Positions 12,550-36,348 of a stretch of DNA of 64,000 nt are shown here, one piece after another. Position numbers and translations under genes: made by a program. A model generated the notes under the pieces. The model did not search any database. It saw only the letters and a list, made by a program, of their open reading frames with translations, and was not told where the DNA came from. Where the stretch lies: assembly GCF_037023735.1 (NCBI RefSeq), contig NZ_CP146070.1, positions 37,004 to 101,003 on the forward strand, given 5' to 3'. Source of the stretch: Roseovarius sp. S88 (GTDB taxonomy: Bacteria > Pseudomonadota > Alphaproteobacteria > Rhodobacterales > Rhodobacteraceae). Each line of letters begins with the position of its first letter. The stretch's first letter is position 1.

Positions 12550-13465
12550 AACGGGTTGTCTACCATGTTCCAAGCTTTGTCCCATCCGCGCGTAGAACGT
12601 AGACGACCACGCGCTCTCGGGGCCAAATGTTTGCTGTGATGCCGAATTCTGACTTGTCGCAGACAGCCTTCTCTTGTGGTTCGAAATAGCCTTTTGCCAC
12701 AACCGAAGCAAACGCCCAGTTTCCAACAACTGTATTGGAGGTTTCGCAAGCCGTGGGTTGATTGCAGTCATTGGCCTCCGCGATGCCCGAGGCAGTTTTT
12801 AGCGCGAAGCGGTTGTCGACAACTCGCGCAGTGAATGTGTACGATCCGCCCGTTGTGCCGGATTCTGACGCGCATCAGCTCGTTGTGGCTGGTAGGGTGA
12901 TTGCCTAAACTTCTAATGTGATTGGAGCCTTGCGGCCTCCCCAGCTCGGCTTCGCGTGTCGCAGGGGAGAACGGCCCTTCGGTCCGTCGCGCATTCGGCC
13001 ATGCGGCCTCACCGCGGCGTCGCGCCTGGCATTCCGGTTTGCCCGCCTCGCGAGCACGTCCCTCCCCGGCCGCTCCGCCGGATTGCGCTCTGGTCTGTTT
13101 TGCGGGGCAAAACGATCCCGCCGCTTCATCCGTCTCCCGCGTCCGGTCAGGCCGTTTGCCTGCTCGTGTCGGGCAAACCTACCGTCAAAACACACACACA
13201 TGAGTGCGGAAGCATATCCTCCGGATGGCCCCCAAATCAGCCCGCGTCAAGGATCGCAAAACTTTTCGGCGACGGCGGGGCCTTTGGCGCGGAGCGGTCC
13301 CGTGCGTGAGCGCGCGCATGTGTCCGGTGCTGCGCGCAGAAAATTTTTGCGCCCGGCAAGCCGGCGGCTGCGCCGTCCCTGACCCGGGCAGATTCGGAAA
13401 CCAGGCATTCGGCCATGCCCCCACACTCACGTGGTGGCTCTATAACCGAACACTGGAGACCAGAC
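12550..13465. other. Long intergenic region with hairpins
   Basis: About 900 bp without a convincing gene. The first part may hold a gene remnant: a 41-codon frame at 12783-12908 looks weakly protein-like. From about 12930 to 13200 the sequence is low-complexity and C/G-rich, with stacked short inverted repeats such as GTTTTGC-GGG-GCAAAAC (13097-13113) and GTTTGCC...GGCAAAC (13154-13178). A CA-repeat follows at 13190-13200. Several open frames on both strands cross it, but none has a ribosome site plus a plausible protein. It may encode a structured RNA or be a regulatory or replication region; I cannot decide. Confidence 0.4.
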
Positions 13466-15698: not shown

Positions 15699-16280
15699 AT
15701 GTCCCGAACAAAACGCCTCACAGAGACCGAGAAGATGCAGATCGCCCGCGAGGCGGCGGAGGGTGTGTCGACGTCTGAGCTGGCTGAGCGTTTCGAGGTC
15801 ACATCGCGGGCCGTGCGCTACGTCCTCAAAGCTGATGCCGAGCGCAAGACGGATGCCGCAATTCCGGTCTCAGCGGTCAGTGTGAAGGTCACGGCTGCGG
15901 AGCTTGCGGCGCTCGACGCGGTGTTGGCGAAGGCGGGGATCGAGAGCCGGGCCGAGGGGCTGCGGCGGCTCATCCAGGCGGCAGGCGGGGTGTTCGTTCC
16001 GGATGCGCAGATGGCAGCCGAGATGGCGCGCTACCGCGCCTCTCTGCACGAGGTTGGCAATGGGGTCGCGCAGATCGCCAAGCAGATGACGAAGGCCAAC
16101 CGGCAGGGGCAGGGGGTCGGCCCGGAATTCACTGAGTTGCGCCTTGCGCAGATGCGCGGGCTGGCGCGGTTCATTCTGGACTCCGCTGACGAGATCGACC
16201 TGCTCCTGCGCCGCCGTCGGGATGCGATGAAGCTCGAGGCCACGGCCGCCTTGCGGGAGTTTGCCCATGCGGCTGAATGA
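15699..16280 (+). CDS. Relaxosome accessory protein, MobC/VirD1-like
   Basis: A 193-residue protein that likely bends or melts oriT DNA and recruits the relaxase. Residues about 8-45 form a helix-turn-helix (TETEKMQIAREAAEG...ELAERFEVTSRAVRYVL). A MobC-type core follows, with the diagnostic NGVAQIAKQMTKANRQG helix near residues 119-135. The relaxase gene overlaps its 3' end by 14 bp. The ATG at 15699 has only a distant GGGGG upstream, so the start is less certain than the identity. The position directly after the candidate oriT fits the role. Confidence 0.85.
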   Translation: MSRTKRLTETEKMQIAREAAEGVSTSELAERFEVTSRAVRYVLKADAERKTDAAIPVSAVSVKVTAAELAALDAVLAKAGIESRAEGLRRLIQAAGGVFVPDAQMAAEMARYRASLHEVGNGVAQIAKQMTKANRQGQGVGPEFTELRLAQMRGLARFILDSADEIDLLLRRRRDAMKLEATAALREFAHAAE

Positions 16281-18600: not shown

Positions 18601-20291
18601 GCGTCGCCATGGGAAAGGCGCGGATCGCCACGGGTGTCCTGCTCGTAACGCTGGTGACCGCCGCCATGGGCTATACGATCGCCTCGGCGGTTTTGACCTA
18701 CCAGGATATGGGCTTCGGGGCCGAGATCGACTTTGCCTATATCGCGCAGAACTATCTGGCGATCCTCGATCGCCGCCCAGAGGACGCGCAACTCATCCAC
18801 CTGATCATCGGCAGCTTTGCCGCCGCCGGCATGATGCTGAGCCTCGCCCTCTCGGGGTCTGCCCTCACACGGTTTGGCCAAACCCATTGGCAGACCGCGC
18901 GGGAGATGAAGGCCAATGGGTTCTTCGGCGCGCCCGGGACCGGGTTCATCCTCGGCAAGCTCGGTACTCCAAAATCCCGCGCGAAATACATCTGCTCGAA
19001 GGTCTTCCCCCATGCGCTGATCGTGGCCCCCACGGGCCGCGGCAAAACCACGGGCTTTGTCATTCCGAACCTGCTGACTTGGCAGGGCTCCGCCGTGACG
19101 CTCGATGTGAAGGGCGAGTGTTTCGAGGCTACGGCCCGGCACCGCGCGGCCCAAGGCGACAAGGTCTATCGCTTTGCCCCCACCGATTGGGAGGGCAAGC
19201 GCACGCATCGCTACAACCCGCTCCTGCGCATCTATCAACTGAAAGACCCCGCCCGCCAGCAGATGGAATTGCAGCTCCTCGCGACGCTGTTCCTTCAGAG
19301 CGACAACGACCGGGTCCAGGGCCTCCTCAAAGGCGGGATCGATCTCTTCGTCGCGGCAGGGCTCTTGGCCTTCCAGCGCAAGCGCCCCACCTTGGGCGAG
19401 ATCTACCGCATCGCAGCCTCGGGCGGGAACAAGCAGAAGGAGTATTTCGCGCGCGGCCACGAGGTGGAGAACAGGGCCGCCAAGTTGATCTTCACGCGGT
19501 TGGCCTCGACCAACAACGATACGCTGACCTCCTACGTCTCGCTTCTGATGACCTCGGGGCTCGATCAATGGCAGAACCCGGCCATCGATGAAGCGACGGC
19601 GGTGTCGGACTTTGATTTCCGGACAATCCGCAAGAAACCCTTCTCCGTCTATCTCGTGGTTCAGCCGCTGATGGTGAAACCCCTCGCGCCGCTGATCAGG
19701 CTCTTCTTCTCCGACCTTCTCTCCGCCATGCAAGAAAAGGACCCCGGGCCGGATGAGCCCTGGCCGGTGATGATCATGCTCGACGAGTTCAATCGCTTGG
19801 GCAAAATGCCCATCGTGGTCGAAAGCATCGAGACCCTGCGGACCTATCGCGGTCACCTCGCGGTCGTCACCCAGACCATTCCCGCCCTCGATGAAATCTA
19901 TGGCGAGAACACCCGCCGCGCGCTGCAGGGGAATGCTGGCGTGAAGCTCTACCTGACGCCGTCGGATGAGAAGACTGTCGAGGAGTTGAGCAAGGCGGTC
20001 GGTAAGACCACGAAGACCGTCATCACGCGCTCTCAGTCCATCGGCAAAAACCCCTTCGAGGGCCGCAGCCAATCCACAAGGACTGAAGAAAGCTCTTTGT
20101 TGCCCGAAGATGACGCGCGCCGCCTACCGCTCGATGAGATCGTCATGGTGATCGACGCGCAAATGCCGGTCCGAGCCAAACGGATCCAGTATTTTGACGA
20201 CCGGCTCTTCAAGGCGATCCACGGGGCGCAATCAGGCGAGTTGCCGTTTCCGAAGCCGGGGGAGGGAGGCCGCAGGGTGATCTGCCGCTGA
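18597..20291 (+). CDS. virD4: VirD4/TraG coupling protein
   Basis: A 564-residue inner-membrane ATPase that links the relaxosome to the VirB channel. It has two N-terminal membrane segments (about 11-34 and 68-90), Walker A APTGRGKTT (144-152), a GSAVTLDVKGE strand, and Walker B VMIMLDEFNRLG. Other coupling-protein signatures are VVTQTIPALDEIYG and the LTPSDEKTVEELSKAVGK region. The TTG start overlaps the relaxase stop as TTGA; an in-frame ATG at 18609 is the alternative. Length and motif order are normal for the family. Confidence 0.95.
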   Translation: MSVAMGKARIATGVLLVTLVTAAMGYTIASAVLTYQDMGFGAEIDFAYIAQNYLAILDRRPEDAQLIHLIIGSFAAAGMMLSLALSGSALTRFGQTHWQTAREMKANGFFGAPGTGFILGKLGTPKSRAKYICSKVFPHALIVAPTGRGKTTGFVIPNLLTWQGSAVTLDVKGECFEATARHRAAQGDKVYRFAPTDWEGKRTHRYNPLLRIYQLKDPARQQMELQLLATLFLQSDNDRVQGLLKGGIDLFVAAGLLAFQRKRPTLGEIYRIAASGGNKQKEYFARGHEVENRAAKLIFTRLASTNNDTLTSYVSLLMTSGLDQWQNPAIDEATAVSDFDFRTIRKKPFSVYLVVQPLMVKPLAPLIRLFFSDLLSAMQEKDPGPDEPWPVMIMLDEFNRLGKMPIVVESIETLRTYRGHLAVVTQTIPALDEIYGENTRRALQGNAGVKLYLTPSDEKTVEELSKAVGKTTKTVITRSQSIGKNPFEGRSQSTRTEESSLLPEDDARRLPLDEIVMVIDAQMPVRAKRIQYFDDRLFKAIHGAQSGELPFPKPGEGGRRVICR

Positions 20292-20737: not shown

Positions 20738-22221
20738 TAGATTTAGCCGGTCAGATCATGCGGTGGCCTCCGTTTGGACGGTCTTGGGCCTGAGCTTGGC
20801 GAGCTTTCTGAGGTTCTGCGCGATAGCTGCGAGAAGGAACTCATCTTTGGCCCCGTTGGGCCCTCGCAATCGCAATCTGGTCAAGTTCAGGATGCGCTTG
20901 AGGTGCGCGAAGAGCATCTCAACTTTCTTCCGTTTGTCACGGCTGACTTTGTACGCTTTCGACTTACGGCTGGATCGCGCGAAGTCCCGTGCATCCTCGT
21001 GCTCTTCCCGACTGACCGATCTGCAAGCCGCATTAGGGCAGCACTTCTCTTTCGATGGACAACTCTGACAATCGGACTTGAGGGCTCGGTATTTCCGGGT
21101 GCCACGAACGTTCTTACCGCGATTGGGATCGGAGTAGTTGCGTCGGAACTGTTTGAGCGCGAAGCCTTCCGGGCAAATGTATTGGTCGTTGGCTTCGTCA
21201 TATTCAAACTCGAACCGCGTCCATGCCCCGTCTTTGCGGTTCGAATGATCGATCACCGGGATGAAGGGGATGATCCCGCGCTTCTTAACCAGCCAGCCTA
21301 GGTTGTCGCTGGAGCCATAGGCAGTGTCTGCAGCCAGCCAATCCGGTCTTATACCGAAGCGGCTTTCGGTGCGATCTAGCATTGTTTGAGAGGCACCTAC
21401 TTCAGCCTGCCGGATTGCCCGAGTGGCTTCAACGTCCATGATGACCGAGCTTTTGGTGTCGATTAGATAGTTCGTGGCATATGCAAAGTACGGGCGGCTC
21501 TCTTCGGCGCGCGTCCATTGGGCAGCTGGATCGGACTTGGCTACGAACTTCGGTTGAACAGGAGAAGCGGCTCCGAATGCCGCATCATCCAGCGTTTCGA
21601 GATATTCCTTGGCAGCGCGGTTGCTAGCTGCCCGGGCAACGTCTTCACTCCAGTCCTTGGCCGCAATGGAACGGGCTTTGTTAGCATCCGCCGGTATCAG
21701 GCTGGCATCGACGGCAAAGCCTTCGCCAGACACAAGGTCTTCCTTCAGGCAGCGCTCAACTGTCGCCTCGAAAATGTGACGCAGCATGTCGCTGTCACGG
21801 AACTTGCCATGGCGGTAACGCGAGAAGGACGAATGGTCAGGCACCTTGTCCTCCAACCCGAGCCGGCAAAACCAGCGGTAGGCCAAATTGAGATGCACCT
21901 CTTGGCAAAGACGGCGTTCTGAGCGGATGCCCATCACATAACCAATCACCAGCATCCGAACGATGAGCTCGGGATCAATCGAAGGGCGGCCGGTATGGCT
22001 GTAGAAGGGTTTCAGCTTCTCACGCATGTCACCCATGTCGAGGAAGCGGTCGATCTCTCTCAGCACGTGATTGGGCGGCACATGAGCGTCCAAATCGAAC
22101 TCATAAAACAGCTGCGCTTCCACCCTTTGAGTGCCCATCATCGCTCGATCCTCCCAATCTCGATAAATCGAGTGAATCAAACGACTTGCCGCACTGCGAC
22201 ATATAGTTTTTCAACAGCATC
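20636..22221 (-). mobile_element. IS1182-like insertion sequence (boundaries provisional)
   Basis: The element contains one complete transposase gene. Its ends are proposed from imperfect inverted segments: 20636-20652 (GATTCCGTTGAAGAACT) matches the complement of 22205-22221 (GATGCTGTTGAAAAACT) at 14 of 17 positions. The implied length of about 1.6 kb is normal for IS1182-group elements. No target duplication could be confirmed, so the boundaries are tentative while the transposase is clear. Confidence 0.6.
20756..22141 (-). CDS. IS1182-family transposase
   Basis: A 461-residue DDE transposase. The N-terminal DUF772-type domain is visible as DPELIVRMLVIGYVMGIRSERRLCQEV and PDHSSFSRYRHGKF. 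The catalytic core has FAVDASLI and WLAADTAYGSSDN. A C-terminal cysteine cluster (CQSCPSKEKCCPNAAC) and a final helix ERRK-type segment (KKVEMLFAHLKRILNL) are also typical. I start it at the ATG at 22141, preceded by GGGAGG, rather than 13 codons earlier. No stop or frameshift interrupts it, so the element may be active. Confidence 0.9.
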   Translation of the reverse strand: MMGTQRVEAQLFYEFDLDAHVPPNHVLREIDRFLDMGDMREKLKPFYSHTGRPSIDPELIVRMLVIGYVMGIRSERRLCQEVHLNLAYRWFCRLGLEDKVPDHSSFSRYRHGKFRDSDMLRHIFEATVERCLKEDLVSGEGFAVDASLIPADANKARSIAAKDWSEDVARAASNRAAKEYLETLDDAAFGAASPVQPKFVAKSDPAAQWTRAEESRPYFAYATNYLIDTKSSVIMDVEATRAIRQAEVGASQTMLDRTESRFGIRPDWLAADTAYGSSDNLGWLVKKRGIIPFIPVIDHSNRKDGAWTRFEFEYDEANDQYICPEGFALKQFRRNYSDPNRGKNVRGTRKYRALKSDCQSCPSKEKCCPNAACRSVSREEHEDARDFARSSRKSKAYKVSRDKRKKVEMLFAHLKRILNLTRLRLRGPNGAKDEFLLAAIAQNLRKLAKLRPKTVQTEATA

Positions 22222-22296: not shown

Positions 22297-25200
22297 TCAA
22301 ACCTCTTCAAGTTCGCCCAGGTCAATATCTTTCCCCGCTTTGATCAGATCGTAAATAAGGTTCGTAAGTATGCCGAGGCCTTGCTTGTCTTCTTTGAGAA
22401 GATGCGTGGCCAACGCGTTGTTCGAACTCATTGCGCGTACCACCGCGCCTTGAACCGCGCCGGGAAGGCTTCCTTTCAACGCTTGGTCTTTAGAGTTTTC
22501 CTCAACTTGCGCTCGTACGATGCTGTTTTCACGGGTTATCGAAACGATTTGGTTTACAAAGCTTGCTTGGTCCTTGATCGGAGCGGCTTCACCAAAGATA
22601 CCGTTCAATCGTTCGATCAACTCCTGTAGGTAGACAGGAAGCTTACCGGGCGCATTCGATCCGCCCGGTCCAGTGGGCTTCAAGTTTGGATCTGGGTCAT
22701 CACCGTTGTTGCCCTGGTCATCGTTCTTGTTAATGTCGTATCCCGTAAGGGAAATGCCTCTGAGATCTACGTGCTCGGGAGGAATGCCATTGAGGCGGTT
22801 TGCCAGAAGTTTTGTGAATGCGGCAAAATTTTCCATGCTGGGATCCCCCAGATCCAGCAATTGCGCGATGTATGTGTAGGTCCTGGAAAACCTAGCCAAG
22901 CCCGACTTGAACTCCAGCATCCGACCGATGCTCTCTTCTATTTGCATCCTTTCATGCTCGGCCTTTTTCGCCGAGGCATCGTCTCCTGCTTCGGTTGCCT
23001 TCAGGAATTCAACTTCGCACCGAGCGGCCTCTTCGCGGAGCGCTTTGAGGCGAGCGTTGTACAGGTCGGTCGGTCGTTGGGTGGCCGCAAACATCGCCTT
23101 GTGGTGATCTTCTTCGCCGGTGTCGAAGGTCTTGGCGGTTTCGAAGCGCGCGACCTTGAACGCGTCAATGTCTTCGTCCGAGTAGATGCCCTGTTCGTCA
23201 AGTGTATCCTTCATGTCGTAGATGACGTTTGGGTCTTGAACCTCGGTGATTTGCGCGCCGGAATCATATTTCTTGAAGGCCGCTCGGATCGCTTCCGGGT
23301 CATTGACGAAGTCGACGACGAAGGTCTCTTCCTTGCCTGGGAATGTGCGATTGAGGCGCGATAGCGTTTGAACGATTTCGACTTCATTCGCGATCTTCTT
23401 GTCGACATACATAGCAACGAGCTTCGGCTGGTCGAAGCCCGTCTGGAACTTATTGGCGACCAACATCACTCTAAATTCCGGCCTATCAAATGCGATCCGC
23501 AGGTCCTTGACCTCGACGCCCGTATTCATGTTGCTTTCAGTGAATTCGGCATCGTCGTCACAAACGAACAGATCGCCTGAAATCTGCGCGTCATCGGAAT
23601 GCATAACGTCCTTGCCGCTGAGCTTCCCCGAGAATGCGACCAACGCGCGAACGTCTTTGTACTGTGGGTTGGCGATGACAAAAGCATCGAAGGCCATCTT
23701 GTAGCGAACAGCCGCCGCACGCGAGCTCGTCACAACCATTGCCTTCGCCTTTCCGTCAAGGAGAGGCGAAACGTTGTGCCGGAAGTGCTCCATGATGAAT
23801 TGCACCTTCTGGGTGACGTTCGTGGGGTGCAGGCTCATCCATTTGGCAAGCGCTCGCTTGGCTGCCTTGCCATCCACGCGCTTTTTGTCTTCCAGTTCTT
23901 TTCCCAGATTGAAGGCGGTCTTGTATGAGACGTAGCCCTTGAGCACGTCGAGGATGAAACCCTCGTCGATGGCCTGACGCATCTCGTACTTATGGAACGC
24001 GCGCGGCAGGTTGTCCGGGCCTGCCGGGCGGGACGGGTCCTGCGGTCGTCCAAACAACATCAAGGTTGAGTGTTTCGGTGTCGCAGTGAACGCGAAGTGG
24101 GACAGGTTCTTCGGCCGAGCCCGGCTCTTCTGGATCTCGGTCAGAAGCTCTTCGACCGTCATGTTGGCGGTATCTTTAGCCGACGAGAGGGCGAGGGTCG
24201 CCTGCAGCTTCGAAGCGGTGCTGCCGGTTTGCGATGTATGCGCCTCATCGATTATCACGGCAAAGCTACGGTCCTTCAACGATGTCTCCGTCAGGATCGC
24301 TTCCATGGCGTGCGGGAAGGTCTGAAGCGTCACCACGATAATCGGCACGCCCTTCAGCATCGCTTCTGTCAATTGAGCCGTCTTCGTCTTGGAGCTTGTT
24401 TCGCGATCAATCGCGGCGATCATGCCCTTGCGGTGGTCGATCTGCTGAACGGCATCTTGCAACTGCCCATCCAGCACAGTCCGATCCGTCACGATGATCA
24501 CTGTGTCAAAGACGGCCTTCCCGTCATCATGGCGCAGCTTGGTCAGGTCGTGGGCAGTCCAGGCGATTGTCGATGTCTTGCCCGAGCCCGCACTGTGTTC
24601 GCAGAGGTAAGCGTGCCCGGGGCCTTTCTCTTTCGCGTCCGCGATCATCTTGTTGACCGCGTCATGCTGGTGGAAGCGTGGGAAGATCAGCGTTTCCTTG
24701 ACCGACCAATTGCCCTTCAGGTCCACCACATCCTTCTTCTCGACATAGACGAAGCTGTGGAAGATCCGCAGGAAGGCATCGGGCTGGCAAATCTCCTCCC
24801 AGAAGTACGCGACGGGGTATTCGCCGTCGTCACGGGGCGGGTTGCCGCCTTTGCCGTCGTGGCCACGGTTGAAGGGCAGGAAGTAGGTGTTCTCGCCCGC
24901 CAGTTTCGTCGCCATCCAAATCTCGCTATCCGACATCGCGAAATGCACGATGGCACCGCGTTTGAACGTCAGCAGCGGGTGTTTGCGGCCGGTGGCGGGG
25001 TCTTCGGGCAGGCGGTCGCGCTTGTACTGCTCGCGTGCGCTTTCGGCGGATTGGGTGAAGTCGGTTTTGAGCTCGACCGTGGCCACGGGCAGCCCGTTGA
25101 TGAAGAGGCCCAGATCGATCGCCAACTCTCGGCCGGGATGGTACTTGAGCTGGGGCACCACGCGCAGCCGGTTGGCGGCGTAGCGCGCGATGATCGTCTC

Positions 25201-25530
25201 GTTGCGCTGATCTTCGGGCGCGGCCTCGGACATATCGATCTGTCCGCAGCCCGCGATGGAAAAGCCACGGCGCAGAACCTGGATGGTGCCCTGTTTCGCT
25301 AAGGCGGCGCCGAGGCGGGAGAGCAGCGTTTCGCGGGCGCGCTCTCCGTTCAGGGCGACGAGCTTGTCCCACTTCGGCCTTTGGGTCTCTTGGATCCAGG
25401 CTTCCAGATCCTCGGTGTAGACGGCGGTGTCCTGATCAAAGCCTTTGGTGTCGCCAAGCAGCCAGCCCTGGTCCGTCAGTTTCTTGACGATATAGGCCTC
25501 AAGGTGTTTTTCGTGGTGTAAATCGCTCAT
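22297..25530 (-). CDS. hsdR: Type I restriction enzyme subunit R
   Basis: A 1077-residue DNA-translocating endonuclease subunit. An N-terminal PD-(D/E)xK nuclease is visible as D139...E153-L-K155. The helicase part has Walker A SAGSGKTS (313-320), DEAH (428-431) and later motifs such as MLVANKFQTGFDQPKL and LSRLNRTFPGKE. The C-terminal region would bind the methylase complex. It is the last gene of hsdM-hsdS-hsdR, and its ATG overlaps the hsdS stop as ATGA. The IS lies directly downstream but leaves the gene intact. Confidence 0.95.
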   Translation of the reverse strand: MSDLHHEKHLEAYIVKKLTDQGWLLGDTKGFDQDTAVYTEDLEAWIQETQRPKWDKLVALNGERARETLLSRLGAALAKQGTIQVLRRGFSIAGCGQIDMSEAAPEDQRNETIIARYAANRLRVVPQLKYHPGRELAIDLGLFINGLPVATVELKTDFTQSAESAREQYKRDRLPEDPATGRKHPLLTFKRGAIVHFAMSDSEIWMATKLAGENTYFLPFNRGHDGKGGNPPRDDGEYPVAYFWEEICQPDAFLRIFHSFVYVEKKDVVDLKGNWSVKETLIFPRFHQHDAVNKMIADAKEKGPGHAYLCEHSAGSGKTSTIAWTAHDLTKLRHDDGKAVFDTVIIVTDRTVLDGQLQDAVQQIDHRKGMIAAIDRETSSKTKTAQLTEAMLKGVPIIVVTLQTFPHAMEAILTETSLKDRSFAVIIDEAHTSQTGSTASKLQATLALSSAKDTANMTVEELLTEIQKSRARPKNLSHFAFTATPKHSTLMLFGRPQDPSRPAGPDNLPRAFHKYEMRQAIDEGFILDVLKGYVSYKTAFNLGKELEDKKRVDGKAAKRALAKWMSLHPTNVTQKVQFIMEHFRHNVSPLLDGKAKAMVVTSSRAAAVRYKMAFDAFVIANPQYKDVRALVAFSGKLSGKDVMHSDDAQISGDLFVCDDDAEFTESNMNTGVEVKDLRIAFDRPEFRVMLVANKFQTGFDQPKLVAMYVDKKIANEVEIVQTLSRLNRTFPGKEETFVVDFVNDPEAIRAAFKKYDSGAQITEVQDPNVIYDMKDTLDEQGIYSDEDIDAFKVARFETAKTFDTGEEDHHKAMFAATQRPTDLYNARLKALREEAARCEVEFLKATEAGDDASAKKAEHERMQIEESIGRMLEFKSGLARFSRTYTYIAQLLDLGDPSMENFAAFTKLLANRLNGIPPEHVDLRGISLTGYDINKNDDQGNNGDDPDPNLKPTGPGGSNAPGKLPVYLQELIERLNGIFGEAAPIKDQASFVNQIVSITRENSIVRAQVEENSKDQALKGSLPGAVQGAVVRAMSSNNALATHLLKEDKQGLGILTNLIYDLIKAGKDIDLGELEEV

Positions 25531-26792
25531 GCTGCAGCCCTCACATCAATCTTACCGGTCACCGCCGCCGTAATGAGCGCCGCGCGTTTTTCTTTCAAAA
25601 GCGCGATGGAGCGCTCTGTTTTTTCCAACAGGCCATCAATGCGAGTTGTCTCGCGCTCAATGTGGTCTGCAATTTTTGTCTGCTCTGCTATCGGGATTCG
25701 AGGCAGGCGGACTTTTCTAAAATGGCTGAAATTCATGTCTTGTCCGTCACGAATAAAACTGGTCGTCAGGCGCAAAGCCTGAATGTAGAGGCTTGATTTC
25801 AATAGGTATCCGAAAAAACGACCTTCGACTTCTGGGCCGCATTTCAGCACAGAATAAGATGAGCGAACACTCCCGACGGCGCGGGCGCGTTCAAGGCCGC
25901 CATCCATGCTGCGCATACTGATGACGAAATCGCCGACTTCGACGTGCTTTCGCTTGTCGAGGTTTGCGACGGCCATTGTAACCTGTCGCTGTTCCAGCGC
26001 TTCGAATTCGGCCAGAGGGATCACGCCGTATTTCTGGGTGGCTGACATCAGTTGATCGCCCTCATGGGCGCGTTCTTTGCTTTCCTTGAATAGAACCGTT
26101 GGCGGAACGGTTTCCCAGTGGGCGGGGATGTCGCCAAGCCAGTCGAGACCTGAGGGCTTCATTTCGACGTTCCGGTCGATGCCCTTGGTGACGGCGTGGT
26201 CGATGACGGCCGCGCGCTTTTCCTTGAGCAGCGCGATGAAGCGCGTCTTGTCTTCGATCAGGCGATCAATGCGTCCGGTCTCATCGTCGAGGAAGTCAGC
26301 GATACGGGTCTGAAGCTGTTTTTCTGGCAACGTCAGTCGAATTCTACCAAGCGCGCTTCGGCTGATACGCCGCATCGTTGTGCCTCGAGCCAACATACTC
26401 GCGTGCTCCAGATAAGGCTTGGAAGACAGCAAATAGACTACGAAGCGTCGGTCGTATTTATCGGACGGCCGCGCGATGACATTGTCGACGGAAGTTACAA
26501 TTCTGTAGCCGAGGTCCGGTACAATACATGCTCGACCGGCAGGCAGGTTCAGGCGAGAGATGAGTATATCGCCGGGGAAAACCTCCGTGCACTGCAACTT
26601 CTGAAATGTTTCCTCCGAGACGAAGCCGGTTCCTCGTTCTTTGTACACGCCCACATCGACGGCACCTGTTGTGATGTAGCGAATTCCATCATCAGACAGA
26701 TCTTTGCTTTCGATCCAATCACCATCCAAAAAGAAACCACCGTCATTTTTGGCAATTGCAATCAGTGGCTTTGTGTCCCAGTCGCTGCTCAT
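25527..26792 (-). CDS. hsdS: Type I restriction enzyme specificity subunit S
   Basis: A 421-residue DNA-recognition subunit with two target-recognition domains and two similar coiled-coil spacers. The first domain ends in LLKEKRAAVIDHAVTKGIDRN near residue 210. The second begins with GLDWLGDIPAHWE and ends in LLKEKRAALITAAVTGKID. This two-half build predicts a bipartite target, which cannot be read from sequence alone. The gene overlaps both hsdM and hsdR by 4 bp, giving coupled translation of the three subunits. Confidence 0.95.
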   Translation of the reverse strand: MSSDWDTKPLIAIAKNDGGFFLDGDWIESKDLSDDGIRYITTGAVDVGVYKERGTGFVSEETFQKLQCTEVFPGDILISRLNLPAGRACIVPDLGYRIVTSVDNVIARPSDKYDRRFVVYLLSSKPYLEHASMLARGTTMRRISRSALGRIRLTLPEKQLQTRIADFLDDETGRIDRLIEDKTRFIALLKEKRAAVIDHAVTKGIDRNVEMKPSGLDWLGDIPAHWETVPPTVLFKESKERAHEGDQLMSATQKYGVIPLAEFEALEQRQVTMAVANLDKRKHVEVGDFVISMRSMDGGLERARAVGSVRSSYSVLKCGPEVEGRFFGYLLKSSLYIQALRLTTSFIRDGQDMNFSHFRKVRLPRIPIAEQTKIADHIERETTRIDGLLEKTERSIALLKEKRAALITAAVTGKIDVRAAA

Positions 26793-28831
26793 TCTGTCAC
26801 CTCAGCCAAAACTTCAGCGATGGAGGCCTCGATGGCCTTCAGCTCTGCATCGATCTCGTCCAGATCGCGTGGCGGCACGTATTCATAGAAATAGCGATTG
26901 AAGTTAATCTCATAGCCAACGATCCCGATGTCACCATCCGTCTCGTCCACATAGGTCTCGTCGATATAGGCGTCATGGGCATGGGGCGTGACCTCAGTCG
27001 CAAGGTAGTCATCGATATCGGTGCCCATGGGCACGTTCTCGTAGTCGGTCAGATCATCGTCCGGGATCAGGTTGCCCTTTTTGTCCTTGACCGGGTCCAG
27101 ATCTTCATCCCGCACACCAAAGGCCTTTTGAAACGCCTTGATCAGCGCCGCGTCGGCTTTGCCGAGACTGGCGTCTTTCTTCGCGGCCACCTTAGCAAAG
27201 CTGTCGATCCAGTGCCAGTCATGGTCGGTGCCTGCATGCTCTGCCAACACCTCGCGCCAGCCCTGCCGCTGATTGTCGGTGCGCTTTTCCCAGGCCTTGT
27301 GTTCGGCCAGCGCTTCAAACCCCGCGTCTGACACAACGATCTTGTGGCGCAGCGGGCGAAGCACCTTGATGCGGCGATAGCCAAAGTCCTGTGCGTCAAG
27401 GATGAGGCTTTTCGCGGTCGGCTCGAAATCGGCATAGAGCTGCACGATATCGCGGATTTGGTCCTCGCCAATCTTGCGGCGCTTGTTGCCCTCGCTCTTG
27501 CGGAGCGGTTCAAACATCTCGGTCGCGTCGATCAGTTGAACCTTGCCGCGCCGGTCAGCGGGCTTGCGGTTGGACAGAACCCAGATGTAGGTGCCGATGC
27601 CGGTGCGGAAGAAGATCTCGGTCGGCAAGGCGATGATGGCCTCGACCACGTCTTGCTCAAGCAGGTGGCGGCGGATTTCGGATTCACCCTGACCGGCGTT
27701 GCCGTTGAAGAGGGGAGAGCCCGACAGCACGATCGCCGCGCGCCCGCCGCCCTTTGCTGGGTCTTCAAGCTTGCTGAGCAGGTGCAACAGGAACAGCATC
27801 GAGCCATCGCTGACACGGGGCAGCTTGGGGCCAAAGCGCCCCTCGAATTTCTGGTCGCGGTGTTCGCGCACGACTTCGGCCTGGTCCAACTCCCACTTCT
27901 TGCCGAACGGTGGGTTGGAGACGCAGTAGTGGAATTTCTCGTGCCGGAATTTGTCGGCAGACAGGGTGCTGCCGAGCTTGATGTTCTGCGACAGATCGCG
28001 GCCCGGGTCAGATTTGAGCGTCTTCAGAAGCATGCTCGCCAGACAGACTGCGTGGGTTTCAGATTCCAGCTCCTGGCCGTAGGGAACAAGCGTGGGGGCC
28101 GTGCCATAGCGATCCTGCAACGACTGAACGTGCTCCATCCCGTCCGAGACAAAGCCGCCTGTGCCGATTGTAGGGTCGTAGAGCGTGCGAATGATGCCGG
28201 GGTTGTCGATGAACATCTGGTCATCCGGTTCGAGCAAGAGCTCTATGCCCAGATGGACCACGTCGCGCGGCGTCATGAAGTCCTCAGCCGCTTCGTTTAC
28301 CTCGGCACCGAACCGACGGATCAGGTGTTCATAGACGTTGGACATTGTCCGCTCGGGAACCGCATCAGGATGCAGGTCGATGGCGGCGAAGTTTTGGCAG
28401 ATCTTGTAGAGAACGCCCTTCTTGTCCATCTGGCTGATCGTGTTGATGAAATCGAACTGCTCGAAGATCACGCGGGCATTTGCGGAGAACTTCGCGATGT
28501 AGTCTTCAAGGTTCTGGCGGGTGCGGCCGGATCCCAGCGTTTCGAGGCTGTAGTTTGAGGTGTTGTAGAAGGGATAGCCGGTTGCCTGGCGAAGGATGAC
28601 ATCGACATCGAGCCCATTTTCAACGGCCATCTTGTGCATTTTGGCGGCTTCTTCCCGAGTGGGCTCGAGGACGCATTCCAAACGGCGGAGAAGCGTGAAC
28701 GGCAGGATGATCTTGCCGAAATCGACGTGTTTGAAGTTGCCCCAGAGGTCGTCCGCGTTTTTCCAAATGAAGTCCGCGAGCGACGTGTGGGTGTTGTTGG
28801 CTTTTGCTGTGGTTGATGTCTGTGTGTTCAA
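26789..28831 (-). CDS. hsdM: Type I N6-adenine methylase subunit M
   Basis: A 680-residue methylase subunit. An N-terminal HsdM helical domain (SLADFIWKNADDLWGNFKHVDFGK...) precedes the catalytic core, with motif I DPTIGTGGF (219-227) and NPPF (306-309). The C-terminal about 180 residues, rich in acidic stretches, contact the S subunit and DNA. Catalytic motifs are intact, in contrast to the methylase-like pair just upstream. An 80-bp gap separates it from that pair, so it may have its own promoter. Confidence 0.95.
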   Translation of the reverse strand: MNTQTSTTAKANNTHTSLADFIWKNADDLWGNFKHVDFGKIILPFTLLRRLECVLEPTREEAAKMHKMAVENGLDVDVILRQATGYPFYNTSNYSLETLGSGRTRQNLEDYIAKFSANARVIFEQFDFINTISQMDKKGVLYKICQNFAAIDLHPDAVPERTMSNVYEHLIRRFGAEVNEAAEDFMTPRDVVHLGIELLLEPDDQMFIDNPGIIRTLYDPTIGTGGFVSDGMEHVQSLQDRYGTAPTLVPYGQELESETHAVCLASMLLKTLKSDPGRDLSQNIKLGSTLSADKFRHEKFHYCVSNPPFGKKWELDQAEVVREHRDQKFEGRFGPKLPRVSDGSMLFLLHLLSKLEDPAKGGGRAAIVLSGSPLFNGNAGQGESEIRRHLLEQDVVEAIIALPTEIFFRTGIGTYIWVLSNRKPADRRGKVQLIDATEMFEPLRKSEGNKRRKIGEDQIRDIVQLYADFEPTAKSLILDAQDFGYRRIKVLRPLRHKIVVSDAGFEALAEHKAWEKRTDNQRQGWREVLAEHAGTDHDWHWIDSFAKVAAKKDASLGKADAALIKAFQKAFGVRDEDLDPVKDKKGNLIPDDDLTDYENVPMGTDIDDYLATEVTPHAHDAYIDETYVDETDGDIGIVGYEINFNRYFYEYVPPRDLDEIDAELKAIEASIAEVLAEVTE

Positions 28832-28910: not shown

Positions 28911-30062
28911 TCAGGGCATGTCTCGGTTCAACTCTCTGCTCGGCCAGGAGCTTGTTCGCTCGGCTTCAATCTCGGCCAAGATTGCCTCGATCTGAGCATG
29001 CCGCTCTTGCCTCTGCTTGAATGTGAGTTCTGCGCGTTCGGCTTCTTCTTCGGAGGGGATTGGAACTCGGAAGGCCTTCAGGTCTTTGATAGCGATGGAT
29101 TGTATCGCTGAGCCGCCAGCAAGTGTGCGCAGCGCCTCAACAACCGTTGGATTTGCCAGGTATTCATAGAGAACCACACCGGAAACTCCCCCGCGTTTCG
29201 GGCGCAGGATCATGAAGGATTGACCTGCCGTCCAAAACCCATCTTCGTCACTTGTCGGCGCATCGGCGGGGACGAGGCTTGCCGTGCCGATCGTACCTTT
29301 CACGGACAAGATGACATCGCCAGGAAGCAACCGTTGGTTTCGAGCCTTGCGCATTTGTGCACGTTCTAGCGTTGATATTTTGTGCGGTTGTGTCAGGAGG
29401 CCATGCTGGCTCACATCAGCGGGCGATGCCTCGAAGATAGTGAATTCTCCATCTTCTGCTTTGCCCAAACTTAGAGGGCGGATCAGTTCGACCGCATCTT
29501 GCAACTCAATCGTGCGCGAGCGCTCTAGGAAGCCTTCAAGTGCGACTGCCGCTGGCGGGAGCAGATACCGGTTGATGCTCAGGATGAAGTCTTTCTCTTT
29601 GATCTCCTCGAGTGAGACGTCCTTGGCGAAGGTTTCATCGGTTGCGGTGCTTTCCTCCAAGTAGCGGGCCCAGTTCGTACCGGGCAGTATTTCAGGGCGA
29701 CCCCTAACTGTCCTTCCAGAGAAGATTGGATGAGAAAGATCGAGCATTCTGACCTTGGAACCATCCATGTTGGAAGAGGTGAGAACCAAAACATCGGTGT
29801 CCATCATTGTGTTTGGGAAAATCATGCCGCCAGGAACCGCGAGGACGCCTTTCAAGCGACCGGATGCAACGAGTGCTTCGCGCACTAGGGGCTCAACGCC
29901 AACGCCTCGATACATTAGCCCATCTGGCACACAAAGGATGGTTTGGCCGGTCGACTGTGCTAGCGCATCGGCTAAAGCGAGCACATCTTCGGTTAGGCGC
30001 TTTTTTCCCTCTTCCGCGTCCAATATCGCAAGTGTGCTTCGCGGAATCTGGTTGGTATTCAT
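28911..30062 (-). CDS. Methylase C-half fused to a specificity-like domain, catalytic motifs absent
   Basis: A 383-residue protein. Residues about 35-100 (ILCVPDGLMYRGVG...LVASGRLKGVLAVPGGMIF) match the segment that follows the NPPF motif in N6-methylases. Residues about 195-370 resemble one HsdS-type target-recognition domain (LLPGDVILSVKGTIGTASLVP, QSFMILRP, IKDLKAFRVPIPS). No motif I or NPPF is present. The gene overlaps the upstream gene by 4 bp (ATGA), and that gene seems to carry the missing N-terminal half. It could be an inactive DNA-binding partner or a decaying methylase-specificity fusion. Confidence 0.7.
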   Translation of the reverse strand: MNTNQIPRSTLAILDAEEGKKRLTEDVLALADALAQSTGQTILCVPDGLMYRGVGVEPLVREALVASGRLKGVLAVPGGMIFPNTMMDTDVLVLTSSNMDGSKVRMLDLSHPIFSGRTVRGRPEILPGTNWARYLEESTATDETFAKDVSLEEIKEKDFILSINRYLLPPAAVALEGFLERSRTIELQDAVELIRPLSLGKAEDGEFTIFEASPADVSQHGLLTQPHKISTLERAQMRKARNQRLLPGDVILSVKGTIGTASLVPADAPTSDEDGFWTAGQSFMILRPKRGGVSGVVLYEYLANPTVVEALRTLAGGSAIQSIAIKDLKAFRVPIPSEEEAERAELTFKQRQERHAQIEAILAEIEAERTSSWPSRELNRDMP

Positions 30063-31053: not shown

Positions 31054-31962
31054 CTAGGCGTCCGTTGCTGTTGCGATCCAAGACGACAGCAGCAGCGGCT
31101 GATGGACTATTGAACGACCAAGGTTTCGTGAATCTGAGTTTTTTTGGTTGCCATCCGCGACTAGAATCCCGTCTGAGATGAGCTTTTCCTTCAAGCTGCC
31201 ATAGCTTTGTTGGACATAGCCGGTCTCGGTGAGCGCCTCGGACCCTTCCAGTACAACAAATTCACCATCTTCTTCGACAGCGGTCGCTTTGACACCACTC
31301 TTGTGGCGGATCTCAAACTGCACTTCACCTGCGGTTCGTTCATCGACTGGCTTCGCTGTCTGTGTCACAGCGCGCGGTTGTGGTTTGAGCATATCCAGAC
31401 CGATCACGGGCAAGATGATGCGGAGGTTTGATAAGAACTGCTCCATGTTGGCAACGTCAGCCTCGGGCAATCGTCGCCTGCTGGTGTCCGGCTGCGTGCC
31501 GTTATCCAACGTGACGCGGCCTGCTTGGGCGGCTTGTTCTATGAGCCGCGCCTCCAGGTATTCCGCGTGCCCTTTGGAAAGGTCATCGTCACTAGTCGTG
31601 ATGGTGATGGCAGTTTCCCAGAAATCTCTCTTAATCGCGCTTTGCTTGATCCGCTCTGCTACGGAGTTTCCAGAACCAATGTACGTGCGGGTTGCACTGG
31701 CTTTTTCGGGATCAGGACCTGAAAGAATGTAGATCCCGGTCCTATCGACCTCTTCACGAGCGGTAAGGTCGCCAAAAGCCGAAGCCCCGCTCACAAAAAG
31801 CAAACCTGTCCAACCGTGGATCGTCGCTTTCCGCAGCCCGGTTGGTTTCCCGTCTACAAGGAAAAGTTGAATAGTTCGACCAAAGTAACTCTCGGGCTGC
31901 AAAAGTCGCTTCCTCCACAGAGCTGCAATACGTTTTTGCAACCCTCGCATATCGCAATTCAT
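31054..31962 (-). CDS. GIY-YIG nuclease with DUF4357 tail, frameshifted
   Basis: A 302-residue reading. A GIY-YIG domain starts at GIY (76-78) and YIG (94-96), followed by AERIKQ. A DUF4357 region begins near residue 230 (FVVLEGSEALTETG). The real C-terminus lies in another frame: from the seven-T run at 31139-31145 a -1 shift restores FTKPWSFNSPSAAAAVVLDR and NSNGRLEWKVKGSKQTYHDW, ending at 30983. So the 302-residue product has an aberrant last 24 residues. This is either a one-base loss, a sequencing error in the homopolymer, or programmed slippage at A-AAA-AAA. It heads a - strand run through the methylase-like genes to hsdR. Confidence 0.8.
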   Translation of the reverse strand: MNCDMRGLQKRIAALWRKRLLQPESYFGRTIQLFLVDGKPTGLRKATIHGWTGLLFVSGASAFGDLTAREEVDRTGIYILSGPDPEKASATRTYIGSGNSVAERIKQSAIKRDFWETAITITTSDDDLSKGHAEYLEARLIEQAAQAGRVTLDNGTQPDTSRRRLPEADVANMEQFLSNLRIILPVIGLDMLKPQPRAVTQTAKPVDERTAGEVQFEIRHKSGVKATAVEEDGEFVVLEGSEALTETGYVQQSYGSLKEKLISDGILVADGNQKNSDSRNLGRSIVHQPLLLSSWIATATDA

Positions 31963-32284
31963 TCAAAATCTGTAGTCACTTACTATCTATATCGAATGAG
32001 GAACAGTCGCTTGGGAGGTCGGGGTTCAGGTTCGCGCCCGCGAAGCCTCGATGCCAGTGGTCAACATCCGCCTAGGGAACGAAAGAACTAGGTCTTTAAG
32101 TCTGTTTGGTGCTAAAATCAAAGGCTCAACAAACTGAACCGTTTGCCAACAATCAGATATCTCGCCCTGCGTTCTGACTTGAGCGGCACAATAAGATGTC
32201 TGTGCTCGGCAAGACCGGTTTGATCTAGGCTTCAAGCTGAATGAGGATGGTTTTCTATCAGCAGGTTGCTAAGAGAAATAGTCA
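31963..32284. other. Divergent intergenic region
   Basis: A 322-bp gap between the - strand GIY-YIG gene and the + strand two-gene nuclease unit. It must hold two divergent promoters. I see AT-rich stretches at 31963-31995 and 32230-32280 but no clear operator, ORF or RNA. Confidence 0.4.
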
Positions 32285-33868
32285 ATGAACGATTCAGGAG
32301 TTGAACAAATAAACTTTCCCCAGTGGACCGAGTATCAGAACAAGAACGGGCTCGATCCGCTTGGCATGCAAAATAGCAGCGTCAATCTTTATCAGACATT
32401 CCTGCCAGGCATCAGCAACGTGACGCTGCGCATGCGCTATTACGGACTGTATGCTTGGCTCAACAGGGCCTACGGGAAGAAAATCGGCGACACGAACCCT
32501 GAGGCCTGGAAACGCTATATCCGCCGGACCGAGGCGCTCTACGCCTTGATCTCTTGTCGGCATGGCGGCGAAACCGGTGTCGCCGGAATCGACTGGGCCA
32601 CGAAGAAACTGAACCACACCACCAGCTATACGATCGAATTCGCGCAGGACGCTGAACCCGGCAGCGAGACGCATTATCTCCAGCAAGCTTGGGGTGCATA
32701 TGGCGCGGCCTATGGAAGTCAGGTTTCCGAGATCGGCATCCTCACGACCGTAGGACATCCCATTCCGGTGTTGACTGAAGAGATCGGCGAGCCACTTGCG
32801 GCTGTATTCGATGAAGCAATGGGACCGCTTGCTAGCCACTTTTTCGAAGTCATCAAGCGCGGCTCTGTAAGCCTGTCCGAACTCGATGAATTTGCCGCGC
32901 TCGCACCCTCCGAGATCGATCCGGCAAGCGAGGAACGCGCACGCTATCAGGACATTCTACTCAAAGAGCCCGACAAGGAGGATACGTCAGCGCTATCGAG
33001 ACGGCTAAGCGTATTGCTGATCCTAAAGGCCGCCGGACTTTTGGCCCGCGAACCCAAGCCCGATGAAATCCGCTGGATTCTGTATTCGGGATACGACAGC
33101 GAAGGCCGTACTCTCGATCTGGTATCGCCTGCACTGGAAGCGCAGCGCCAGCGCTGGTGGGTCTATCATGCCAACGATCTTAGCCACATCGCGATGGAGA
33201 CCCTGCTCAAATTCGCGCTCGATCAGCTGGGTAATTTTCCGGCCGGCATCACCTTGGAGCGCCTTATTGGCCTGTGCGTCGATGAAATCCGTGATGTTGC
33301 CGACGCTTGGCCAGAAGACTGGGAAAGCTTCCTCGACGAATTGACCCCCGCCGCCAACGCTTATGCTGCAGACGATCCCGAAGCCGAATGGTCGCTCTCA
33401 CGCGACATCGTGCGCGGTGCCGGACGTAAAGAAAAATTCTGTCCGCCCGAGCTTGCCTGGAAGGCCGTCAAACTGCTGGCGATCATCCACAAGCGCAGTC
33501 AGGAAGGGGACCGCGATATCGCAGCCGAACTCGGGCGTTTCAACCCCGATGCGTTCCGCTCGTTATTGAGCGAGACGCGCTTCCTCAACCGCAACCTGAA
33601 GGCACCGTTTGCCGATATCATCGCGAAAATCATTGAGGAACGGGTCATACGCCGCCACATGTGGGTGGCGCTGCGCAAGTTCCGCTATCAGCGGGACTAT
33701 ACCTTCCTAATCGAGATGGATGAGGGACGCATCAGACTGCGCGAAAAGGACGGGCCGGTCTTCACGAACCCGCGCCTTGGTCCCGCGATTACCTTCCTGA
33801 AAGACATCCATCTGGTCGGCGGTCAGGGTCTGACAGACCTTGGTGCAGAAGCGGCAGGTGCCGCATGA
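32285..33868 (+). CDS. Unknown 527-residue partner of a PLD nuclease
   Basis: A soluble protein of unknown function. The N-terminus has a conserved-looking block (LDPLGMQNSSVNLYQTFLPGISNVTLRMRYYGLYAWLNRAYG) that reminds me of DUF6361-like defence-island proteins; this is a weak recollection. The rest is mostly helical with no visible nuclease, NTPase or membrane motif. The last segment (FRYQRDYTFLIEMDEGRIRLREKDG) looks like a winged-helix or beta domain. It overlaps the next gene by 4 bp (ATGA), so the products are probably made in fixed ratio and act together. Confidence 0.75.
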   Translation: MNDSGVEQINFPQWTEYQNKNGLDPLGMQNSSVNLYQTFLPGISNVTLRMRYYGLYAWLNRAYGKKIGDTNPEAWKRYIRRTEALYALISCRHGGETGVAGIDWATKKLNHTTSYTIEFAQDAEPGSETHYLQQAWGAYGAAYGSQVSEIGILTTVGHPIPVLTEEIGEPLAAVFDEAMGPLASHFFEVIKRGSVSLSELDEFAALAPSEIDPASEERARYQDILLKEPDKEDTSALSRRLSVLLILKAAGLLAREPKPDEIRWILYSGYDSEGRTLDLVSPALEAQRQRWWVYHANDLSHIAMETLLKFALDQLGNFPAGITLERLIGLCVDEIRDVADAWPEDWESFLDELTPAANAYAADDPEAEWSLSRDIVRGAGRKEKFCPPELAWKAVKLLAIIHKRSQEGDRDIAAELGRFNPDAFRSLLSETRFLNRNLKAPFADIIAKIIEERVIRRHMWVALRKFRYQRDYTFLIEMDEGRIRLREKDGPVFTNPRLGPAITFLKDIHLVGGQGLTDLGAEAAGAA

Positions 33869-36348
33869 AGCTTTACGAGCGCTTTGCCGATAAGGGCTAT
33901 CACACGAGCATCCTGACGACCTTCGGGATCGATTTCGACGCTTACGAAAACATTGTTCTGCCGCGCCTTCGCGGTGCGGGTTGCCGGAACAACATCGTCG
34001 TTCCTGACGCGCGGATGCTGACCCACGCCCTCACCGGCGCTTCGACACTGCCGGACCATGCGGGCAAGCTCTACACAGTCACGGGTGCGACCGCCCGTCA
34101 GGTGTTCCACCCGAAGCTGTTCCTGCAAATCGGACGCAAGGGCGGTCGCATCATTGTGGGCTCTGCGAACATCACTTCGTCAGGCCTTGCTGGTAATCTC
34201 GAACTGGTTGGCACGATCAGCTGCGGTGAAGAGGATTCCGCTGAACAGCGAATGGTCGCAGCGGCATGGCAGTATCTGACACGCTTTGTCGGTCTTGATC
34301 AGGAAGCGTTGCGCGGCCAGCAAGACTGGATGCTGGCAAGAGCGCCGTGGCTTCGGCTGGCGGTCGCCTCGACCGAGAAGATGGGCCTCGCCGACCAGAC
34401 CGAAGCCGCATTTCTGACAACCGGAACCGAGACCGGCATCGGCCAGCGCTTCGCCGATATGATTGACGAACCGGTCATACGGCTGATCGTGGTGAGCCCG
34501 TATTGGGACATGGGCCTTGCGGCACTGTCCTATCTGAACGAACGGCTGTCCCCTGAAGAAGTGTCTGTGGTCATCGACCCTGCGGTCGTCCAGTTCCCGA
34601 AGGACGCTGCGAGCGCACTACCCAACCTAAAACTCTACCGTCGCAACGGGTTTCAAGAAGGACGCTTCATCCATGCAAAAACCATCATCGCGCAAACACA
34701 GAGCGCCGACCACGTTCTGCTCGGCAGCGCCAACTGCACGCTCGCGGCACTTGGTCGCGAGGATTATGTCGGTGAGAACGAAGAGGTCTGTCTCTATCGA
34801 AGACTGCCGCCGGATACCATCATCCACGCGCTCGACCTCGCCGGTGTCCTCGATGAGGAACACACGATCGAGCCCGCAGAAATCGACGAACCCGAATTTG
34901 ATGACGATCTGCCGCTGGAAGAATTGGCAGAACAAGCCCCCGGCGAATTCGAAGTCAGGGTTGATGTGTTGGTCTGGCGACCTGCATCTTCAATCGATCC
35001 CGCCGGTTGCACCATCGAGCTGCTCGATCAGAACGGATCGGTGATCCCCTGCACCTTGTCGCCGCTGCACAGTGAGCGCAGCCCGCGATTCCAGATTTCT
35101 GAGACAGATGTCCGTCCGTCATTCGCCCGTCTTGTCTTCTCAGACGGCCGCCACTCGGTGCCCGCCATCGTCACGCTCATCGACCGTCTAAGCTCTGCCA
35201 TTAGGGAAACGCGCTCGCGCAAGACAGAGAATGTCCTTCGCGGTCTCGATGAAGAAACCGAAGCCGGTCTGATGCTGATGGAAGTCCTCGATGTCCTCGA
35301 ACGGCTCGATCTGGATGCAGACAAGGACCAAGCGCCGATCTCGATTCCGAAGGCAGGTCACGGCAAAGATGACGAGCCAGCGGCACACTATGAAGTGCTC
35401 AGCTATGAACAATTTATCGCCGGACGACGTCCGCGCACTGCCGAGGCGAGCCTGACACATAACAGCCTCGCGGGAAGTGAAGCAACGCTGGTGCGGGGGT
35501 TCCTGAACCGCATACTCGGCATGGACGGACAGCGCGACGAGATTGACGACGCCGATGATGATGACCTGATGCGCGACGCGTTCAATCTCGGCGATGAAAC
35601 CGATAACGCGGAAGCCGCGATCGCCGCTGGCGCGGACTTCGGGAAAGAAGAAAAGACGCCGGAAGAGGAAAAGCGTGATGAGGCTGTGCGCAAACGAAAA
35701 GCGGCACAGCGCAAAGCAACCAAAGACCAACTCGTCAGCGCGGCACTCAAATTCGGACAGCGTATCAAGGACCGACAGGAATCTGGACAGCTGGACAATC
35801 ACGACATCCTGCGCTTGCGCGCATTGCTGATGATAATCGCGGCTGCATCGGGGAAGGGGTCGGAAGCCAAAAAGGGCAAACAACCACCGCGATCCTCGTT
35901 CCAGGTCCTATCTGCCGAAGGCGACAAGAACAGCTGGCCCTTTGTCATGGGAAGGCTCCTATTCACCGTGTTCGGTGGAAACGATCCAGCCATCCGTCAG
36001 CTTTACCTAAGCAACGAGCACGATCAGATACCCGACGATCTCGTCGAGTGCTGGGCGACCTGCTATTGGTGCTTCCAGGTCTGCATGCAGGCCTCGATCT
36101 CTGAAATCGAGAAGACACGGATCACCAAGTATCTCGGCCCGATCGCTTCTTATGCCTACACCATGACACTCCCGACAAAAGCCGAACTCCTCGGCGATGA
36201 TATCATGACCATCATCGGCGGCATGAACTCACGCTATGCCGATAAGCTCGGTATTGAGCCGGCAGCCATCGGGAATGGGCACCGATCGTTTGTCGAAAAC
36301 CTGTTCACGCTCAATAAAGCGGGGAGCCCGTCAAAATCCTGCATTTGA
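33865..36348 (+). CDS. Phospholipase-D-like nuclease, large
   Basis: An 827-residue protein with two HKD half-sites. HPK (82-84) is followed by GSAN (99-102), and HAK (270-272) is followed by GSAN (287-290). Both halves together form the active site of PLD-superfamily nucleases. Residues about 300-560 are beta-rich then acidic. A highly charged Lys/Glu/Arg segment (KTPEEEKRDEAVRKRKAAQRKATKDQ) near 600-635 may be a coiled coil, followed by a C-terminal helical domain. No helicase is fused or adjacent, unlike many PLD defence proteins. Translation is coupled to the 527-residue partner. The catalytic family is clear; the defence role is inferred from context. Confidence 0.8.
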   Translation: MKLYERFADKGYHTSILTTFGIDFDAYENIVLPRLRGAGCRNNIVVPDARMLTHALTGASTLPDHAGKLYTVTGATARQVFHPKLFLQIGRKGGRIIVGSANITSSGLAGNLELVGTISCGEEDSAEQRMVAAAWQYLTRFVGLDQEALRGQQDWMLARAPWLRLAVASTEKMGLADQTEAAFLTTGTETGIGQRFADMIDEPVIRLIVVSPYWDMGLAALSYLNERLSPEEVSVVIDPAVVQFPKDAASALPNLKLYRRNGFQEGRFIHAKTIIAQTQSADHVLLGSANCTLAALGREDYVGENEEVCLYRRLPPDTIIHALDLAGVLDEEHTIEPAEIDEPEFDDDLPLEELAEQAPGEFEVRVDVLVWRPASSIDPAGCTIELLDQNGSVIPCTLSPLHSERSPRFQISETDVRPSFARLVFSDGRHSVPAIVTLIDRLSSAIRETRSRKTENVLRGLDEETEAGLMLMEVLDVLERLDLDADKDQAPISIPKAGHGKDDEPAAHYEVLSYEQFIAGRRPRTAEASLTHNSLAGSEATLVRGFLNRILGMDGQRDEIDDADDDDLMRDAFNLGDETDNAEAAIAAGADFGKEEKTPEEEKRDEAVRKRKAAQRKATKDQLVSAALKFGQRIKDRQESGQLDNHDILRLRALLMIIAAASGKGSEAKKGKQPPRSSFQVLSAEGDKNSWPFVMGRLLFTVFGGNDPAIRQLYLSNEHDQIPDDLVECWATCYWCFQVCMQASISEIEKTRITKYLGPIASYAYTMTLPTKAELLGDDIMTIIGGMNSRYADKLGIEPAAIGNGHRSFVENLFTLNKAGSPSKSCI

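Follow-up and report, generated by a model that had tools for sequence, protein, structure and literature searches.

A mobile two-gene pair of a ZacA-like protein and a ZacB-like phospholipase D protein in Roseovarius sp. S88, related to Azaca but without its helicase

How might a putative phospholipase D (PLD)-type nuclease serve its host when it is coupled to a single partner gene and its operon holds no helicase? The question is raised by two adjacent open reading frames (ORFs), here called A and B, in a 64,000-nucleotide stretch of Roseovarius sp. S88 DNA (the window), which covers bases 37004–101003 of a plasmid-like contig of 101,003 bp, in a genome of 3.64 Mb and two contigs. A and B travel between bacteria as one unit, and, as judged from sequence, the pair is related to Azaca, a defence system of three genes, one of them for a helicase, but is not a member of it. 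The features of the pair, in window coordinates, are as follows.

32209..32284, + strand: 76 bp preceding A, with similarity retained in the related loci L028 and L029 (blastn limits)
32285..33868, + strand: ORF A, 527 amino acids, ZacA-like partner protein
32348..32464, + strand: A residues 22–60, conserved motif GLDPLGxQ ... PGxSNVTxRxRYY...W, in outline common to ZacA/DUF6361
32429..32947, + strand: A residues 49–221, winged-helix-like region, weak structural match
33865..33868, + strand: 4-bp overlap ATGA, stop of A and start of B
33865..36348, + strand: ORF B, 827 amino acids, ZacB-like PLD protein (Pfam PLDc_2, E 4e-7)
33865..34902, + strand: B residues 1–346, complete two-half PLD/HKD domain
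34108..34116, + strand: first HxK site, HPK, B residues 82–84 (H82, K84)
34672..34680, + strand: second HxK site, HAK, B residues 270–272 (H270, K272)
35527..35724, + strand: B residues 555–620, charged low-confidence stretch preceding the helical C-terminal region

The original prediction took the strict 4-bp overlap of A and B as a sign of co-functional products, and comparison with relatives bears this out. A scan of genome contigs with conserved peptide patterns of A, an approach that favours close relatives, yielded 75 loci, to which we added nine plasmid loci (from 14 plasmid records matching A and 17 matching B) and loci on viral contigs; nine clipped or duplicate loci (L001–L007, L010, L011) were left out before counting. 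A full pair, meaning an A of 450 or more amino acids and a B of 700 or more, is present in 76 loci including the window. The 75 genome loci supply 61 of them; the other 14 run into contig ends, have broken frames or give only a short match. The 4-bp motif alone occurs in 72 of the 76 full pairs, and the overlap is kept in frame in 69 once the frame of B is checked, the remaining seven pairs overlapping by 8–23 bp or abutting. DNA similarity to the nearest relatives (L027, L028 and L029; 86–90%) is confined to 32209/32315–36315/36355 and so takes in the pair with no more than 76 bp before it, a segment that is likely a promoter or leader. The ratio of non-synonymous to synonymous substitution rates (dN/dS) against three close relatives is 0.08–0.10 for A and 0.11–0.13 for B, so purifying selection acts on the two genes and neither is a chance ORF. 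Furthermore, the pairwise identities of A and of B correlate (r 0.97, 57 pairs), indicating divergence in parallel. The genome scan places the pair in Alpha-, Beta- and Gammaproteobacteria, and more distant forms are carried by plasmids in Bacteroidota, in Mycobacterium and in a haloarchaeon.

A search for paired homologues, which the original prediction had proposed, was strongly positive beyond these 76 pairs. Among 398 Pseudomonadota genomes sampled separately (own genome included; up to three A and two B candidates scored per genome), the six strong matches to A (E ≤3e-84) and the six strong matches to B (E ≤5e-72) lie in the same six genomes, adjacent, with A before B. Two sets of weaker matches weigh against perfect pairing: three A-like ones, in L135 of G018, in G344 (an Azaca ZacA) and in G428, of which the L135 gene (L135:9526-11100, profile E 1e-30) has no B found beside it; and seven weak matches to B (E 2e-11 to 1e-6) without a strong A, which are read as other PLD proteins. 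By eye, the L135 A-like gene adjoins an integrase-like ORF. In the distant relatives L145:4253-11249, L146:4403-11399 and L136:8392-11788, the order is reversed, with the B-like gene before the A-like one; L145 and L146 carry a divergent 982-amino-acid gene upstream, in L145 a UvrD helicase with a zinc ribbon, while in L136 the ORF preceding A shows, by eye, no more of the PLD motifs than a GSxN-like one of the second half, and has a CxxC close to its end. A phage origin was rejected, with A unmatched in 50,697 phage records (E 1e-3) and neither A nor B assigned to a PHROGs family (E 0.01).

B carries both halves of the active site, as had been noticed from the sequence alone. Specifically, HPK and HAK are each followed by GSAN, and residues H82, K84, S100, N102, E113, H270, K272, G287, S288, N290, N305 and E307 are identical in all 57 rows of an alignment of chosen loci. 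The predicted model of B shows a complete two-half PLD fold, as expected of a PLD nuclease, with both HxK sites. The chemistry of the PLD superfamily proceeds through a covalent phosphohistidine and needs neither metal nor ATP. The long charged region attributed to B is likewise real: 31 of the 60 residues at 561–620 are charged, and the confidence score of the model (pLDDT) falls below 50 at residues 573–596.

No Pfam family matches A at E 0.1, and solved structures give no sequence match to A or B at E 1. The N-terminal motif that had looked conserved in this one protein proves to be so among its relatives, with G22, L23, D24, P25, L26, G27, Q29, P41, G42, T47, R49, R51, Y52 and W58 invariant or at least 90% conserved in 58 alignment rows. 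The AlphaFold2 model of A has a pLDDT of 92. Its C-terminal helical region was considered as a membrane transporter and rejected; the structural matches are only middling and were taken as a common helix arrangement.

To which described proteins are A and B related? ZacA is the sole PADLOC family matched by A (E 1e-3) and is matched by eight of ten aligned relatives, while ZacB is the best family for B (E 6e-14) and is matched by all ten. The pair is therefore related to a described system, from which it has diverged and whose helicase it lacks; of the earlier suggestion of an undescribed system, the helicase-less, divergent form outside Azaca stands, whereas full novelty does not. We take ZacA and ZacB to be proteins of Azaca (ZacA-ZacB-ZacC; PADLOC PDLC03828–03830), which fits four Azaca-type loci, L131–L134. 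These loci match ZacA strongly (E ≤1e-88) and share the order ZacA, PLD-type gene, helicase gene (1044–1129 amino acids), the helicase standing third in all four; their ZacB and ZacC genes were named without the PADLOC models, from place, size, helicase domains and the match to the B profile. All four ZacA proteins match DUF6361. All four ZacB genes are recovered by a profile of B (E 1e-3 to 3e-6); a profile of A recovers three of the four ZacA genes (E 1e-4 to 2e-8). In profile-profile alignment (hhalign), A aligns with the four ZacA proteins with a probability of 94 over 91 N-terminal columns (~90 residues), and B aligns with ZacB with a probability of 99 over 278 columns; beyond these 91 and 278 columns, the C-terminal parts give no alignment.

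The pair thus has a ZacB-like PLD protein and the ZacA-ZacB order with an overlap or short gap, and it resembles Azaca in the placing of A before the PLD protein, in tight coupling, in the double PLD active site and in the N-terminal ZacA motif. It differs in having no ZacC helicase: at E 10, ZacC is unmatched in the host genome, and no window ORF matches a profile of four ZacC-type helicases. Furthermore, A has 527 amino acids against ~390 in ZacA, its remainder being unalignable, and B has 827 against ~620 in ZacB, with an unalignable C-terminal part. Full membership in Azaca was ruled out and the pair is not classed there, because ZacC was not found and A is not a full-length DUF6361 protein. 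In the available text of the papers concerned, Azaca is tabulated with a PLD-like domain (PMC10952713), ZacC is counted among the superfamily 1 and 2 (SF1/SF2) helicases and named with Azaca (PMC12278908), and the mechanism of Azaca is called unknown (PMC10482375).

Kinship and neighbourhood suggest a role in defence. We propose that A and B form a mobile, self-contained anti-invader module that is related to ZacA-ZacB and works without the ZacC helicase, a proposal for which we judge the balance to be even. In such a module, B would act as a metal- and ATP-independent nuclease through PLD phosphohistidine chemistry. Because the nuclease would always be present, control would lie in the partner, and A, being translated first and coupled to B, is a candidate for both restraint and recognition. 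Specifically, A may use its winged-helix-like part to bind both B and the nucleic acid of an invader, keeping B off while the cell is uninfected and releasing it on, or directing it to, foreign DNA. Partner binding or DNA holding, which would be the task of the helicase complex in Azaca, could fall to the charged linker of B and its helical C-terminal region.

The reading that survives next best, though we consider it unlikely, is a toxin–antitoxin-like or abortive module, in which A is an inhibitor that masks B until infection or plasmid loss frees it and nucleic acid is degraded throughout the cell. The position of the partner gene first, with the overlap, the cassette-like spread and the plasmid-like contig all fit such a module, as does the acidity of A (77 D+E against 60 K+R). 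However, typical antitoxins are smaller than A, and the relatives of the pair belong to a three-gene, helicase-containing defence system; because of that kinship, we favour a role of A in directing B to invader DNA.

Could the pair instead borrow a helicase? In this improbable alternative, it is an add-on that uses a helicase or a restriction-modification (R-M) complex supplied by its neighbours or in trans. The neighbourhood in the window is as follows.

8944–12771: YobI-like P-loop NTPase, 1275 amino acids (Pfam E 3e-121), inside a lower-GC (guanine-cytosine) stretch
16261–18600: relaxase, conjugation gene flanking the island
18597–20291: coupling protein, conjugation gene flanking the island
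20756–22180: IS1182 transposase
22297–25530, strand opposite to the pair: HsdR of a type I R-M system, restriction subunit of translocase type
25527–26792: S-like ORF of the type I R-M system, assigned by place only
26789–28831: M subunit of the type I R-M system
28911–30062: methyltransferase/S ORF, fusion-like (N6 methylase end plus specificity domain), beside the type I R-M genes
31054–31962: PADLOC candidate PDC-S14 gene (E 2e-91)
from ~38 kb on: ORFs resembling a type IV secretion system, from translations read by eye

The island that holds the pair, with its insertion sequence, type I R-M genes and PDC-S14 gene, sits between conjugation genes. The PDC-S14 gene also matches a PHROG of unknown function; its start looks GIY-YIG-like by eye, and it has no Pfam match. 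That the neighbours are restriction and nuclease genes, as originally predicted, is borne out. The accompanying claim that no helicase lies nearby holds for the operon but not for the island, where HsdR at 22297–25530 lies ~6.8 kb off on the other strand; the claim is therefore limited to the operon.

For neighbour counts, eight near-identical loci were merged, reducing 76 to 68. No third gene recurs in these 68 loci, the top neighbour cluster, HsdR-like, being present in nine with varying place and strand. Helicase-like proteins lie within two genes of the pair in 13 of the 68 loci, and none was detected in the other 55 with ten helicase queries, which some helicases may escape. By best query, the nearby helicases are of HsdR-type, SNF2, DrmD-like, ZorD, UvrD-type and AAA_12/RNase_H_2 type. 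Helicase-like genes make up 26 of 471 neighbour genes within four genes of the pair against 3 of 383 further out, an excess as in defence islands. The profile of ZacC-type helicases finds five genes in 102 loci plus the window (in L015, L046, L066, L070 and L072). Of 41 loci drawn from the 61 full genome loci (0.857 Mb in all), four carry HsdM-type genes, where 0.12 would be expected given 29 HsdM_N matches across the ~209.5 Mb (sizes rounded) of those 41 genomes; this factor is rough because a blast cluster is set against profile counts and one gene is cut by a locus end. In a Myroides plasmid (L018:5430-19278), the annotation puts the pair within a type I R-M gene run, flanked by hsdS and hsdR on the same strand. 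A protein of ~1150 amino acids directly adjoins the pair in L027:2174-5623 (the closest relative), L035:6517-9933 and L083:13739-17338; the L027 and L035 copies have PDDEXK, RNase_H_2 and SF1-type helicase domains, and the L083 copy was assigned by blast cluster.

The Myroides arrangement, the 13 loci with a helicase close by and the HsdM enrichment all speak for such borrowing. Against it, the helicases belong to several families and are scattered on a quick tree of A, which needs 12 changes for 12 helicase-labelled rows (rows unexamined for helicases being labelled as without one); furthermore, most loci show no helicase within two genes, and the host genome has no ZacC match.

That the pair is a divergent Azaca whose ZacC was lost or displaced, with partial or no function left, we regard as quite improbable. 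Its gene order and its kinship to ZacA-ZacB agree with such decay, but both genes evolve under purifying selection, and the pair without a recurrent third gene is found in relatives of several classes as well. A lipid or housekeeping role for B as a PLD enzyme, with A as its accessory, is very improbable, since, although the structural matches of the PLD fold of B include phosphatidylserine synthases and a phospholipase D, no such pathway was seen among the scanned window genes, its spread is cassette-like and its best sequence families are defence proteins.

We therefore return to the self-contained anti-invader module. In the available text of two papers, the PLD nucleases of DISARM, Dpd and Azaca are accompanied by helicases (PMC12278908, PMC12458937). 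A widespread two-gene form without a helicase would be a minimal system for learning the role of ZacA/DUF6361-type proteins and the capabilities of the Azaca core by itself. Both genes are annotated as 'hypothetical protein' in eight of the nine plasmid records, B being 'phospholipase D-like' in L018; defence surveys may miss the pair because of this annotation. More tentatively, and with doubt prevailing, ZacA-ZacB might be an ancestral portable sensor-plus-nuclease core: the two-gene form would defend without helicase or ATP, A alone recognising foreign DNA, and Azaca and other helicase-linked forms would have been assembled later.

Among other known systems, no two-gene Azaca-like system was found in the available text of openly licensed literature on Azaca, DUF6361 and PLD defence, including PMC12458937, PMC12839542 and PMC11090510. 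DISARM DrmC and Dpd DpdK have PLD motifs in common with B and give weak profile matches, their models being shorter; B was rejected as a DrmC at 22.5 bits against an NCBIfam DrmC_I cut-off of 133. Neither DrmA nor DrmB is among the families listed for nine PADLOC-scanned window proteins (one list being the best 25 of 63 families). According to the part of PMC12458937 available, DISARM and Dpd systems carry YprA-type helicases, unlike the pair. In the PADLOC candidate PDC-M27, the component PDC-M27B is matched by B (E 2e-5) and by nine of ten members, whereas no PDC-M27 component is matched by A at E 0.1 and the helicase-like PDC-M27C (whose model fits the SNF2 protein of L012) is absent from the pair. 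The PLD proteins beside catalytically active prokaryotic Argonautes differ in having an Argonaute as partner, and the likeness is drawn from the description in the available text of PMC11442185, without sequence comparison; as described there, they are, as in the pair, defence PLD proteins with a non-helicase partner.

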